From Acuticoccus sediminis (GTDB taxonomy: Bacteria; Pseudomonadota; Alphaproteobacteria; Rhizobiales; Amorphaceae), in assembly GCF_003258595.1 (NCBI RefSeq), contig NZ_QHHQ01000001.1, positions 372,001 to 436,000 on the forward strand: 64,000 nucleotides of DNA, read 5' to 3'. The notes under the pieces were generated by a model. That model had not been told where the DNA came from and searched no databases. It saw only the letters and a program-made list of their open reading frames with translations. Within the stretch, counting starts at the first letter, position 1. Each line of letters starts with the position of its first letter. A program made the position numbers and the translations under genes. Positions 47,656-51,948 of this stretch are shown here, piece by piece.

Positions 47656-47997
47656 CTAGTCGTTCGCGCGCATCGCCAGGTGGATCGTCCGCCCCTCGAG
47701 GCGGACGTCGAAGGTGCAGGTGGCGCCGTCGTCGGCACCGGTCGCGCGGCCCGACTGCAGCGAGATCACCCAGTTGTGCAGCGGGCAGGTCACGCACCCG
47801 TCGTGCACGATCCCCTGCGACAGCGGGCCGCCACGGTGGGGACACCTGTCCTCCAGGGCGAAGATCCGGTCGTCCGCCGTGCGGAAGACGGCCACCCTCG
47901 TCTCCCCCATCGTGACGCAGCGCGCGCCCTGGGCGGGGATGTCGTCGATGGTGCCAACGATGGCGTAGGCGGCGCGGGTGTCGGTGTGCGCGGTCAT
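47656..47997 (-). CDS. nirD: Assimilatory nitrite reductase small subunit NirD
   Basis: 113-aa Rieske-fold subunit. Both ligand pairs of a true Rieske cluster are present: CPHRGG and CPLHNW, unlike enteric NirD, where they are lost; this resembles NasE-type subunits. It overlaps the nirB stop by 1 base. It works with NirB to reduce nitrite to ammonium with NADH. Confidence 0.9.
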   Translation of the reverse strand: MTAHTDTRAAYAIVGTIDDIPAQGARCVTMGETRVAVFRTADDRIFALEDRCPHRGGPLSQGIVHDGCVTCPLHNWVISLQSGRATGADDGATCTFDVRLEGRTIHLAMRAND

Positions 47998-50441
47998 CAG
48001 ACGAGCTCCGGCTGAAGGGCGGCGAGCGGCTTGAACTCGTGCTTGTCCTTGCCGGACACACGCTCCGACCACGGGTCCGACTGAGCGAATGTCTGGGAGA
48101 GGACGAAGCGGTCGTAGTACTCGCGCCGCTTCCCGGCGTCCTCGAGGATCTGCTCGCGCACCACCTGGTAGCCGACGCGCCGGGCCCACTTGTAGATACG
48201 CTCGAGGTAGTAGCCCTGCTCGCGGTACATCTGGATCAGCGCGGCCGTCACCTCGATGGCCTCCTCCTCCGTCTTCACGAGGCCGAGGACCTCGGTGCCC
48301 TTGATGTCGAGGCCGGCGGCGCCGGCGTAGTGGATCTCGTAGCCGCTGTCGACGCACACGATACCGACGTCCTTGCAGGTCGCCTCGGCGCAGTTGCGCG
48401 GGCAGCCCGACACGGCGAGCTTCACCTTCGCCGGCGTCCAGGACCCCCACAGGAACCGCTCGAGCTTCACGCCGAGCCCGGTGGAATCCTGCGTGCCGAA
48501 GCGGCACCATTGCGAACCCACGCAGGTCTTCACCGTGCGCAGGCCCTTCGCATAGGCGTGGCCGGACACGAACCCCGCCTGGCCGAGGTCGGCCCAGACC
48601 GCCGGCAGGTCCTCCTTCTTCACGCCCAGCATGTCGATGCGCTGGCCACCGGTGACCTTCACGGTCGGAATGTCGAACTTCTCCACCACGTCGGCGATGG
48701 CGCGCAGCTCCTGCGCCGAGGTGAGCCCGCCCCACATCCGCGGCACCACGGAATAGGTGCCGTCCTTCTGGATGTTGGCGTGAACGCGCTCGTTGATAAA
48801 GCGCGACTGGCCGTCGTCCTCGTACTCGCCCGGCCAGTCGGCGACGAGGTAGTAGTTCAGCGCGGGACGGCACTTGGCGCAGCCGCCCGAGGTCGACCAC
48901 TCCAGCTCCTGCATCACCGCCGGGATCGACTTCAGGCCCTTCGCCTTGATGAGGCGGCGCACCTCGCCATGGCCGAGCGGCGTGCAGCCGCACATCGACT
49001 TCACCGCGTTCGCGTTGAAGGCGTCGCCGAGGGTGGCGGACATCAGGTTCTCGACGAGGCCGGTGCAGGACCCGCAGGAAGCCGAGGCCTTCGTATGAGC
49101 GCGCACGTCGTCGAGGCTGGTGAGCCCCTTTTCCGTGATGGCGGCGACGACCCTGCCCTTGCAGACACCGTTGCAGCCGCAGATTTCCGTGTCGTCCGGC
49201 AGGGCCGCGACGGCGGCGACCGGATCCATCTGCCCGCCGCCCTGGAAGGCCTGACCGAAGATCAGCGTCTCGCGCATCCCGGAGACGTCGACGCCCTTCT
49301 TCAGGAGGTCGTTGAACCAGGCGCCGTCGGCGGTGTCGCCGTAGAGCACGGCGCCGATGATCCGGTTGTCCTTCAGGACGACGCGCCTGTAGGCGCCGCG
49401 GGCCGCGTCGCGCAGGACGATCTCCTCGCGGTCCGGCCCGTCGGCGAAGTCGCCCACCGAATAGAGGTCGCAGCCCGTGACCTTCAGCTTGGTGGGAACC
49501 TCGGAATGCCTGAACGCCGCGTCGCCGCCAGTCAGCCGGTCGGCCGCGACCCGCGCCATGTCGTAGAGCGGCGCGACGAGGCCGTAGACGCGCCCGCCCA
49601 CCTCCGCGCACTCGCCCAGCGAGAGGATCGCGGGGTCGGAGGTCACCATGCCGTCGTCGACCACGATGCCGCGGTTCACCTCGAGCCCGGCGGCCCTGGC
49701 GAGGAGCGTGTTCGGGCGGATGCCGACCGCCATCACCACCAGCGAGGCGTCGATGACGGTGCCGTCCTTCAGCTCGACGCCCGTCACCCGTGTGTCGCCG
49801 AGGATCGCCTTCGTGTCGGCGCCGCAGCGGATCTCGATGCCACGCGCAGTGAGCGCCTTTTCGAGGAGGTAGCCGGCGGCCGGGTCGAGCTGGCGGTCCA
49901 TCAGCGTCGGCGTCAGGTGCAGCACGGTGACGTCCATGCCGCGCGCTCTCAGCCCCGCCGCCGCCTCGAGGCCGAGGAGGCCGCCGCCGATGACCACGGC
50001 GCGGCCGCCCCTGTCGGCGGCGGCGAGCATCGCCTCCACGTCGTCGAGGTCGCGGTAGGCCCGCACGCCCGGCAGGTCGCGGCCCGGGACCGGGATGATG
50101 AAGGGGTCGGACCCGGTGGCGATGACGAGGGTGTCGTAGGCGGCGGACACCCCCGCGTCGGAGGTCACGGTCCGCGCGACGCGGTCGATCCCGGTCACGC
50201 GCTGGCCCTTGTGGAGGGTCACGCCGTGGCGGGCGTACCAGTCGTCGCCGTGGATGACGATGCTGTCGTATGTCTTCTCGCCCGACAGGACCGGAGAGAG
50301 CATGATGCGGTCGTAGTTGACCCGCGGCTCCGCATTGAAAATGGTGACGTCGAAGGCCTCGGGCGCCGCCTCGAAGAGGTGCTCCAGCATCCGGCCGGGG
50401 GCCATACCGTTACCAACGATGACAAGCCTGGTCTTCGCCAT
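47997..50441 (-). CDS. nirB: Assimilatory nitrite reductase large subunit NirB
   Basis: 814-aa cytosolic NAD(P)H-dependent enzyme that reduces nitrite to ammonium at a sirohaem. Order: FAD domain (LVIVGNGMAPGRMLEHL), NAD domain (VVIGGGLLGLEAAAGL), BFD-type [2Fe-2S] motifs CGCNGVCKG and CGSCTG near residues 420-465, then the sirohaem/4Fe-4S region with CVGSQWCRFGTQDSTG and SGCPRNCAEATCKDVG near residues 635-685. The operon is preceded by a structured leader at 50528-50607. Confidence 0.95.
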   Translation of the reverse strand: MAKTRLVIVGNGMAPGRMLEHLFEAAPEAFDVTIFNAEPRVNYDRIMLSPVLSGEKTYDSIVIHGDDWYARHGVTLHKGQRVTGIDRVARTVTSDAGVSAAYDTLVIATGSDPFIIPVPGRDLPGVRAYRDLDDVEAMLAAADRGGRAVVIGGGLLGLEAAAGLRARGMDVTVLHLTPTLMDRQLDPAAGYLLEKALTARGIEIRCGADTKAILGDTRVTGVELKDGTVIDASLVVMAVGIRPNTLLARAAGLEVNRGIVVDDGMVTSDPAILSLGECAEVGGRVYGLVAPLYDMARVAADRLTGGDAAFRHSEVPTKLKVTGCDLYSVGDFADGPDREEIVLRDAARGAYRRVVLKDNRIIGAVLYGDTADGAWFNDLLKKGVDVSGMRETLIFGQAFQGGGQMDPVAAVAALPDDTEICGCNGVCKGRVVAAITEKGLTSLDDVRAHTKASASCGSCTGLVENLMSATLGDAFNANAVKSMCGCTPLGHGEVRRLIKAKGLKSIPAVMQELEWSTSGGCAKCRPALNYYLVADWPGEYEDDGQSRFINERVHANIQKDGTYSVVPRMWGGLTSAQELRAIADVVEKFDIPTVKVTGGQRIDMLGVKKEDLPAVWADLGQAGFVSGHAYAKGLRTVKTCVGSQWCRFGTQDSTGLGVKLERFLWGSWTPAKVKLAVSGCPRNCAEATCKDVGIVCVDSGYEIHYAGAAGLDIKGTEVLGLVKTEEEAIEVTAALIQMYREQGYYLERIYKWARRVGYQVVREQILEDAGKRREYYDRFVLSQTFAQSDPWSERVSGKDKHEFKPLAALQPELV

Positions 50442-50486
50442 GGGCGCGCGCTCCTGGTTTCTCGGGGAAGAACCGGAACGCGAACA

Positions 50487-50607
50487 GGCGCCGCGCTCCG
50501 GAGGGCGATAAGCCGAAACGGAGTGAGGCAGCGCCTTTGCTGCACATGCCCTTCCACGACCGAAGGTCCCGGAAGGTCAGCTGTCTGGAAATGCCGCATC
50601 TTTGCGG
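50487..50607 (-). promoter_or_regulatory. ANTAR (NasT-type) antitermination leader of nirBD
   Basis: On the RNA (minus) strand two hairpins have six-nucleotide loops: CCGC-AAAGAT-GCGG (50594-50607) and GCAGC-AAAGGC-GCTGC (50528-50543). Both loops have A at position 1 and G at position 4, the rule for targets of ANTAR-domain antiterminators such as NasT. A competing hairpin (GGCGC at 50531-50535 with 50487-50491, CTCCG at 50519-50523 with 50496-50500) overlaps the second loop stem. Binding would block it and allow nirBD expression. The competing stem lacks a clear U-run, so the termination step is inferred. Confidence 0.7.
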
Positions 50608-50850
50608 TGGCGCCCGGGCGATGGTCTACGCAAGACCTTCAACACCGAACGTAACGTGTATCGCCGAACGTCCCGCGGCCTTCAAGCCACCATTTTTATG
50701 CAATCTGCTCAAATTTTCTGCAGGCTTCTGTTGACGGCGGCCGCGCCACCGGGGCGGTTTTTCCTCGGCTCAGGTCACATCCCGCCGACCCATCACCCTT
50801 CGCCGCAAAATCCGTCTACACTCCGCCGACCACGGGGCGCCCGGCGCGAC
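50608..50850. promoter_or_regulatory. Divergent nirBD / HupE-like promoter region
   Basis: Between the leader hairpins and the HupE-like start. The minus strand has CATAAAA near 50694-50700, 17 bp after a weak -35-like CTGCAG, giving a possible nirBD start just upstream of the hairpins. No supported gene. Confidence 0.35.
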
Positions 50851-51948
50851 ATGACACAGACCCCCCATCCCTGTGCGACCGGCCTGCCGGTGCGGGACCG
50901 GCGGTCCCGCGGACCGCGGCCCGGGTGCTGCGGCCGTGCTCGCCCCGCGCGACCGGCCATCGGACGGGTCCTCCTCGCGGTCCTTTCGGTCTGGCTCGGC
51001 TGGGTGGCGGCGGCAACGGCCCACGAGGTGCGTCCCGCGTACCTGCAGATCGACCAGACGGCACCCCGGTCCTATAACGTCCTCTGGAAGGTGCCGAGGA
51101 CGGGCGACACCTTCCCCGACATCGAACCGCAGTTCGATCCCGCCTTTACCCGGACGACGATCGGCGGCGATACGGTCCTCGACGGGTTCGCGGTCCGCCG
51201 CTTCCGCCTGACCGGCACGGCGGACCTCGCCGGGACCCGGATCGCGATCGGCAACCTCGCGCGCACCGCCATCGATGTCCTCGCCAACGTCACCCTGCTC
51301 GACGGCGCCCGGCACACGCTCCTCCTCCAGCCCGCGGCCCCCTCGGCGTCCGTGCCGCAGGCTCCCACGGGGTGGAGCGTTCTGTCCTCGTACGTCCGGC
51401 TCGGCGTCGAGCACATCCTGCTGGGGTTCGACCACCTTCTCTTCGTGCTCGCGCTGATCCTGCTGACGAAGGGGGTCGGCAGGCTGGTCAAGACGATCAC
51501 CGCCTTCACCGTCGCCCACAGCATCACCCTGAGCCTCGCGGTGCTCGGCATCGTGCGGGTGCCCGGACCGCCGGTCGAGGCGGCCATCGCGCTCAGCATC
51601 ATGTTCCTCGCGCTCGAGGTCCTGCGGACCCTCGACGGGGAGGCGACGCTCACCGCCCGCAAGCCGTGGCTCGTCGCCTTCACCTTCGGCCTCCTCCACG
51701 GGCTGGGGTTCGCCGGGGCGCTGTCGCGGATCGGTCTGCCGCCCTCCGACATTCCCCTCGCCCTCGCCGCATTCAACATCGGCGTCGAGCTCGGCCAGCT
51801 CCTCTTCGTGGCCGCCGCGCTTCTCGCGATCCGCGCGCTCGGGCTCTACCGGGCCTGGCCGCTCGCAGCACGCAGGGTGCCGCCGTACGCGATCGGCGCC
51901 GTGAGCGCGTTCTGGGTCATCGAACGGATCTGGGGCTTCGCCGCCTGA
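50851..51948 (+). CDS. HupE/UreJ-family membrane protein
   Basis: 365-aa membrane protein from the ATG at 50851. After a signal-like segment (about 35-57, ending ATAHEVRPAYLQIDQ) comes a periplasmic domain of about 130 residues and then a C-terminal block of six to seven helices. The motif LGVEHILLGFDHLLFVLALILLTKG matches the HupE/UreJ family, whose members are linked to nickel or cobalt. Related two-domain members are common beside metabolic genes of unknown role. Metal transport here is only a suggestion. Confidence 0.82.
   Translation: MTQTPHPCATGLPVRDRRSRGPRPGCCGRARPARPAIGRVLLAVLSVWLGWVAAATAHEVRPAYLQIDQTAPRSYNVLWKVPRTGDTFPDIEPQFDPAFTRTTIGGDTVLDGFAVRRFRLTGTADLAGTRIAIGNLARTAIDVLANVTLLDGARHTLLLQPAAPSASVPQAPTGWSVLSSYVRLGVEHILLGFDHLLFVLALILLTKGVGRLVKTITAFTVAHSITLSLAVLGIVRVPGPPVEAAIALSIMFLALEVLRTLDGEATLTARKPWLVAFTFGLLHGLGFAGALSRIGLPPSDIPLALAAFNIGVELGQLLFVAAALLAIRALGLYRAWPLAARRVPPYAIGAVSAFWVIERIWGFAA

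Follow-up and report, generated by a model that had tools for sequence, protein, structure and literature searches.

The nirBD operon in the 64-kb window (the whole stretch of DNA analysed here) is preceded on the minus strand by two hairpins with six-nucleotide loops. The pair is conserved with compensatory changes and tracks one clade of NirB proteins, the same genome carries a gene pair that we take to be nasT-nasS, and no standard intrinsic terminator accompanies the hairpins. We consider it very probable that this region is a NasT leader, acting by a transcriptional or a translational route. With less confidence, but still as the probable reading, we regard it as the leader of a second, probably acquired nirBD that would serve as a NasT binding site and attenuate the operon mainly at the level of transcription. 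The earlier note on this DNA had proposed a NasT/ANTAR leader. Conservation, recovery by a covariance model and the nasT-nasS pair bear this out, whereas antitermination of an intrinsic terminator in the strict sense finds no support in the sequence.

Two hexaloop hairpins precede nirBD

The operon and the hairpins upstream of it are as follows.

47656-48018 (span scanned), minus strand: nirD, nitrite reductase small subunit, above the TIGR02378 cut-off
47997-50441, minus strand: nirB, nitrite reductase large subunit, above the TIGR02374 cut-off
50451-50455, minus strand: probable nirB Shine-Dalgarno sequence AGGAG, by eye
50543-50528, minus strand: hairpin P2, GCAGC-AAAGGC-GCUGC, hexaloop with A1 and G4; present in 10/10 clade members, stem cells 100% paired
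50607-50594, minus strand: hairpin P1, CCGC-AAAGAT-GCGG, hexaloop with A1 and G4, read from the sequence; present in 10/10 clade members
50623-50637, minus strand: upstream hairpin P0, GGUCU-UGCGU-AGACC, weak, with a loop that breaks the A1/G4 rule

The two TIGR families confirm the nirB and nirD that had been claimed downstream, so the leader lies before nitrate/nitrite assimilation genes. Likewise, the hexaloops AAAGAT and AAAGGC, each with A1 and G4, were both found on the minus strand where the earlier note had placed them. P1 and P2 start 166 and 102 nt upstream of the nirB ATG (50441). The stem of P1 is 4 bp long in the window, as the fifth pair of the family is an A-C mismatch at the stem base. 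The dual-hairpin motif described for ANTAR proteins (EutV, NasR, AmiR) consists of two stems of at least 3 bp with hexaloops carrying A1 and G4 (Ramesh et al., 2012; PMC3369931). The window leader resembles it in both stems, in the six-nucleotide loops and in A1 and G4, which are present in both window loops and in 20/20 loops over the ten leaders of the clade described below.

We asked how often such a pair appears in dinucleotide shuffles of the 200-nt leader, requiring A1/G4 hexaloop hairpins with stems of at least 4 + 5 bp and a gap of at most 60 nt. A Watson-Crick pair was seen in 3 of 5000 shuffles, and 33 of 5000 gave one when G-U pairs were allowed. The window pair is the only such Watson-Crick pair in the 64 kb, both strands included. 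Given that 64 kb had been searched by eye, these statistics alone are only suggestive, and the short stems and the 33 shuffles with G-U pairs would fit hairpins that arose by chance in a G+C-rich leader. We nevertheless consider that explanation extremely unlikely, as the pair is conserved throughout the clade with compensatory changes and is recovered by a model built without the window; it is this comparative evidence, rather than the shuffling, that decides for a real hairpin pair.

Taken together, the ten leaders are enriched in hairpins just 5′ of P1 (combined p 1e-5); the window's own P0 has p 0.23, and a control segment lying further upstream reached p 0.009. As the control was somewhat enriched too, P0 was set aside as a supporting feature. 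A search for a sigma-70-like promoter at the window leader found none. In five other loci (L180, L181, L183, L169, L091) a TGGCAC-N5-TTGC-like stretch lies shortly 5′ of P1, which we take to be a sigma-54 type promoter motif; none was seen by eye before the window leader. The divergent neighbour of nirB (50602-51948, plus strand) encodes a HupE/UreJ-type membrane protein (PF13795), and its frame as listed begins upstream of the likely true start.

The hairpin pair tracks one clade of NirB proteins

The window nirBD is a second copy, as another nirB sits elsewhere in the 7.76-Mb genome. The genome probably belongs to the Hyphomicrobiales (Rhizobiales), since a genome of its order (L007) has a NirB that matches the one at the Bauldia litoralis locus L102 in all 600 residues compared. 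Among seven genomes of the same genus, searched for nirB matches at E 1e-40, five have one, two have none and 0/7 have more. In a NirB tree of 47 chosen rows with up to 600 residues, the window NirB stands apart from the other NirB of its own genome. Together with nine Rhodobacteraceae NirB it forms a 10-member clade (100/99), within which it branches off first. The other NirB of this genome is joined by the same-genus NirB of L005, L009, L013 and L014; the fifth same-genus genome with nirB, G001, is outside the tree. The nine other clade members are Salipiger mangrovisoli (L034) and eight of the nine matches at E 1e-62 from a search that took in 394 Rhodobacteraceae genomes, about one per genus. 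The ninth match, L192, groups with the canonical Leisingera NirB and is without such a leader. Judged from these sequences, the window nirBD was probably acquired from elsewhere, with lateral transfer as its likely history, and the leader appears to have travelled together with its operon.

All ten leaders of the clade contain the P1-P2 pair. An automatic rule (250 nt upstream, gap of at most 60, stems of at least 4 bp summing to 9 bp) passes 9/10 clade members, compared with 5/167 other distinct nirB loci; the exact test gives 5e-11, with kinship ignored and the sequences not independent. The one member that fails, L187, has an internal C-A mismatch in P1. The non-clade loci that pass are L091, L135, L150, L015 and L192, the last with unrelated hairpins, while inspection by eye suggests nas-type leaders of other kinds for L091, L150 and L015. 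Many nirB loci lying directly behind nrtC or another gene have no hairpin pair of their own. In Rhizobium and relatives a single hairpin, CGGC-AAGGCN-GCCG, recurs about 280 nt upstream of nirB.

The earlier note had suggested aligning the nirB leaders of relatives, with missing conservation of loops or stems as the result that would speak against a leader. Both are conserved, and the stems show compensatory changes. In the alignment of 10 sequences and 10 base pairs, 98/100 stem cells pair, the two exceptions being the A-C at the base of the window P1 and the L187 mismatch. Changes on both sides of a pair were found in 4/10 pairs (7 cells), compared with 0 to 2 pairs in slid control alignments. 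The covariation score of 0.287 was reached by 0/500 shuffles, and likewise the share of paired cells and the 7 cells changed on both sides; the number of further pair types (7) was no better than in shuffles (121/500). In the loops, A1, A2 and G4 are invariant (20/20), whereas position 3 can be C, T or A, position 5 G or A and position 6 C, T or G. At position 3 the two window loops have A, which none of the other 18 loops has.

A model built without the window recovers the leader

A covariance search had been proposed as a further check. Rfam at gathering scores matched nothing in the window, and in the leader even a limit of E 10 brought up nothing ANTAR-like. Since six canonical nas leader loci were unmatched too, this negative result is uninformative on the window leader. 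Model R1, which we built from the nine other clade leaders with the window left out, did find it: within the 64 kb, 50611-50525 ranked first with 21.9 bits (E 1.6e-4), followed by a match of 12.7 bits. In the whole genome the window leader was second of 31 matches up to E 10, with a modest E of 0.02. The top match, C1:313586 (23.4 bits), falls within a reading frame that looks hydrolase-like; the third, C3:403885, overlaps the beginning of an obgE-like one (gene names by eye). Each contains one A1/G4 hairpin of at least 4 bp, and both were rejected as leaders.

R1 was also run on 30 other loci, one of which (L196) holds a training sequence. Leaders recovered outside the training set were the one near the ANTAR gene of G818 (L197; 4.4e-7) and those of P. 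yeei (2.7e-5), of P. denitrificans nasA (1.1e-4), of P. liaowanqingii nirB (1.3e-4), of Methylocystis (L179:2004; 2.4e-4), of Rhodobacter (0.0015) and of Paracoccus AK26 (0.0022). The other canonical leaders given to it, including this genome's own (E 4.5), are missed or weakly scored. Matches at L206:1155 (0.0018) and L113:4470 (0.029) look like coding sequence and were rejected.

Two of these searches touched on other arrangements. At L179:2004-2120 of Methylocystis iwaonis, a hexaloop pair, a GC-rich stem and T7 stand in this order ahead of a gene annotated as alpha-amylase, which itself precedes nasT and nasS; this is possibly another NasT-controlled operon. Some nas-type leaders (L091 Reyranella, L175 Rhodobacter, L197 G818) have three A1/G4 hexaloop hairpins in a row, of which the third, on the terminator side, has 3-5 bp.

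The genome encodes a candidate NasT and a canonical nitrate cluster

The earlier note had asked for nasST to be located elsewhere in the genome and had regarded the lack of a NasT gene as evidence against its reading. Two ANTAR genes lie above the cut-off in this genome. One (E 1.3e-20) is followed by an NMT1_2 gene (E 1.2e-71), 1.1 Mb from the window leader. NasS is an NMT1_2-type protein, and we take the two genes as nasT-nasS, the identity of NasT resting on its NMT1_2 neighbour. The second ANTAR gene, L002 (C9:60280), has an AmiR N-terminal domain and stands behind a Peripla_BP_5 protein gene, an AmiC-AmiR type arrangement.

The putative nasT belongs to a canonical nitrate cluster (L113, C1:1557386-1573500) with the ANTAR gene, a NasS-like gene, a leader, an NrtA-like gene, the second nirB and a molybdopterin oxidoreductase, along with further transporter genes (by eye). 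In the leader that separates nasS from nrtA, the hexaloops are ACGGTG and AACGCT, at a distance of three nucleotides, and a GC-rich stretch precedes a T6 run.

ANTAR matches at E 1e-19 or better were found in 8/8 clade genomes searched, in G913 and in 8/18 other Rhodobacteraceae (p 0.009, with kinship ignored and the Salipiger genome outside the comparison). Two of three further genomes of G1036's genus also have one. In G792 a divergently oriented ANTAR gene directly precedes nirB; this nirB carries the leader, and a hexaloop pair with a T6 run is found at the other end of the same locus. Altogether, 5/8 clade genomes have a hexaloop pair with a T6 run close to an ANTAR gene; the other three of the eight ANTAR loci reach only 1.5 kb to each side, and nothing follows from them. 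In the record of Paracoccus marcusii KGP, the nasS-like gene is annotated as two short pieces (L178:1074-1858) and may be disrupted or mis-assembled.

The linker is long and predicted to fold

Three features of the leader had been pointed out as unusual, namely a short first stem, a linker of about 50 nt holding a stem and the lack of a U-run. All are present, but only the 4-bp first stem is the window's own, the other two being family-wide. The linker has 50 nt in the window (49 nt between 5-bp stems), the longest of the ten leaders; the nine others, measured between 5-bp stems, have 29, 32, 30, 31, 13, 26, 21, 39 and 31 nt. The window linker folds with -20.3 kcal/mol (p 0.023 against shuffles) and is predicted to contain the following hairpin.

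50576-50550, minus strand: linker hairpin CCUUCCG-G-GACC-UUC-GGUC-G-UGGAAGG between P1 and P2, predicted fold

A linker hairpin is predicted in 8/10 clade members and is absent from the two shortest linkers. Taken singly it reaches p < 0.05 in 2/10 (the window and L191), and the combined p is 0.0075. Long linkers are also seen in leaders behind nasS (Leisingera 32, Ruegeria 38, Sulfitobacter 35 nt), and leaders near ANTAR genes of five clade genomes have linkers of 30-39 nt.

In the eut leaders of E. faecalis the linker measures 5-12 nt, and EutV induced eutP much less strongly once its linker had been raised to 14 nt (PMC3369931), whereas the clade linkers span 13-49 nt and mostly carry the predicted hairpin. 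A curated search for actinobacterial ANTAR targets allowed 2-25 nt (PMC8164766). The 50 nt of the window lie outside both ranges. We do not treat linker length as defining, because of the 32-38 nt in the Leisingera, Ruegeria and Sulfitobacter leaders and because Ramesh et al. define the linker only as variable (PMC3369931).

A competing stem overlaps P2, and no terminator follows

The claim that a competing stem overlaps the second hairpin was confirmed, the stem being stronger than expected by chance.

50519-50535, minus strand: 5′ arm of the competing stem, which shares positions with the P2 loop and 3′ arm; p about 0.003
50487-50500, minus strand: 3′ arm of the competing stem, with no U-run after it

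The competing duplex has -21.9 kcal/mol, compared with a shuffle mean of -15.0 (p about 0.003, 300 shuffles), and is the strongest among the ten leaders. Forcing P2 costs 4.5 kcal/mol relative to the free ensemble, in which its 3′ arm favours pairing in the downstream stem; forcing P1 costs 0.9 kcal/mol. The 199 nt before nirB fold better than 200/200 shuffles (z -4.1). Over the clade, the competing stem reaches p ≤ 0.02 only in the window, L187 and L189 (3/10; L034 0.06), and it was therefore rejected as a clade-wide conserved switch and kept for the window. Forcing at least one hairpin costs at least 3.0 kcal/mol in 6/10 leaders and neither costs more than 2.0 in the other 4/10, which shows that the switch is not uniform over the clade. 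A long-range helix between the P1 3′ arm and a stretch nearer the start codon was rejected as a family feature: it has p 0.72 in the window and p ≤ 0.05 only in L034, L185 and L184 (combined p 0.007).

A search for a terminator-like site in the window leader found none, and no intrinsic terminator overlaps P2, although the competing stem does. The absence of a clear U-run was upheld, as the longest T-run between P2 and the nirB ATG is 3 in the window; in the ten leaders it varies from 2 to 5 between P2 and the start codon. The longest T-run in the final 150 nt of 17 compared leaders was 6-8 in 10/17. It was 2-5 in those of P. yeei, AK26, P. marcusii, Methylocystis nirB, Roseibium (T4-C-T4), Salipiger and P. 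liaowanqingii, so that a missing U-run is not peculiar to the window clade. As the long linker and the missing U-run recur in the nirB clade, they do not count against the NasT reading.

The features peculiar to the window could point to a decayed or captive leader, inherited with nirBD from a Rhodobacteraceae-type lineage and unread by the host NasT, in which case nirBD would be constitutive or silent. Of the family's two unpaired cells one is in the window P1, no other linker is as long as that of the window, the A at position 3 sets the window loops apart, and the host's canonical leader has different loops. With the flanks greatly changed, however, both loops retain A1, A2 and G4, P2 has stayed intact, and the competing duplex is the strongest of the ten. 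We therefore consider decay distinctly unlikely and retain the reading of a functional NasT leader.

Comparison with known leaders

Well-studied proteobacterial ANTAR leaders work by preventing an intrinsic terminator. By its title, a paper of Romeo et al. (2012; cited in PMC6759348) reportedly described transcriptional antitermination of nirBD-PA1779-cobA by NasT in Pseudomonas aeruginosa, a case that resembles ours in that the leader belongs to an operon starting with nirBD. The canonical nasS-nrtA leaders (own genome, Leisingera, Ruegeria, Sulfitobacter) share the A1/G4 hairpin pair with the window leader, and the three from the Roseobacter group also share a long linker. Unlike in the window, a GC-rich stem and T6-T8 come after their last hairpin.

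A close precedent for a leader of this kind is that of P. denitrificans nasA (nasTS-nasABGHC), which NasT binds (PMC3795266). In strain HAMBI 2443, which is another strain than that of the published NasT work, the leader (L193) contains GGCGC-AACGGC-GCGCC and UCGC-AAUGAU-GCGG with no T-run above 3 after P2. It is thus like the window leader in its two A1/G4 hexaloops, in being found by R1 and in lacking a long T-run. It differs in its linker of 10 nt, too short for a hairpin, and in its position behind nasTS and before the nasA transporter gene rather than nirB.

A model for the nirBD leader

Without nitrate or nitrite, NasS would hold NasT, P2 would give way to the competing stem and nirBD expression would be attenuated. 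Nitrate would release NasT, and a NasT dimer could then take the AANGRN loops of P1 and P2, which the linker hairpin may bring closer together. Bound NasT would hold P2 against the competing stem, its binding to both hairpins paying the 4.5 kcal/mol cost of forming P2, and the operon would be read through.

As no U-run follows the competing stem, the off state would not be a standard terminator. We favour a transcriptional stop of another kind, Rho-dependent or otherwise non-canonical, because of the P. denitrificans precedent: that leader, also without a U-run, acted in transcriptional fusions, in which mutation of hairpin HI cut activity (PMC5424462). The chief rival is a NasT leader that acts on translation, a folded nirB ribosome site being opened or closed by NasT binding upstream. 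The ribosome-site region of the window is largely paired, with a mean unpaired probability of 0.11 compared with 0.28-0.30 in shuffles. With start codons checked, its accessibility is below the average of 40 shuffled leaders in 8/10 and falls within the lowest 7.5% of shuffles in 6/10 (the window, L034, L185, L187, L190, L191). No T-run exceeds 5 in any of the ten leaders. Ramesh et al. also note many ANTAR motif matches without a terminator, which may act otherwise, for example on translation (PMC3369931), and such action has been proposed for ANTAR RNAs without terminators in PMC8164766 as well. The accessibility result lowers our confidence in a transcriptional mechanism. On the other hand, the starts of P1 and P2 lie some 100-195 nt ahead of the start codon, away from the ribosome site, accessibility is not reduced in L186 and L189, and the analysis yielded no mutually exclusive pairing of P1 or P2 with the ribosome site. 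Together with the transcriptional fusions in P. denitrificans, this leaves translational control rather unlikely in our view, and we retain attenuation that would be mainly transcriptional.

NasT-type antitermination before nirBD is already known. The open literature that we searched, with most subscription papers outside the search, yielded no account of a long-linker, terminator-less nirBD leader class. We tentatively propose, as a view that could turn out either way and if anything somewhat more readily against us, that two classes of NasT leader may coexist in one alphaproteobacterial genome: one with an intrinsic terminator (nrt/nas), and a mobile, nirBD-linked, hairpin-bridged one that is terminator-less and Rho-dependent or translational. 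Such genomes contain their own control, as the same NasT would face a leader with a T6 run and a leader without one, in this genome and in 5/8 clade genomes, which makes ANTAR action without a terminator directly testable. The 25-nt linker limit of the published actinobacterial search would miss most members of this leader class.
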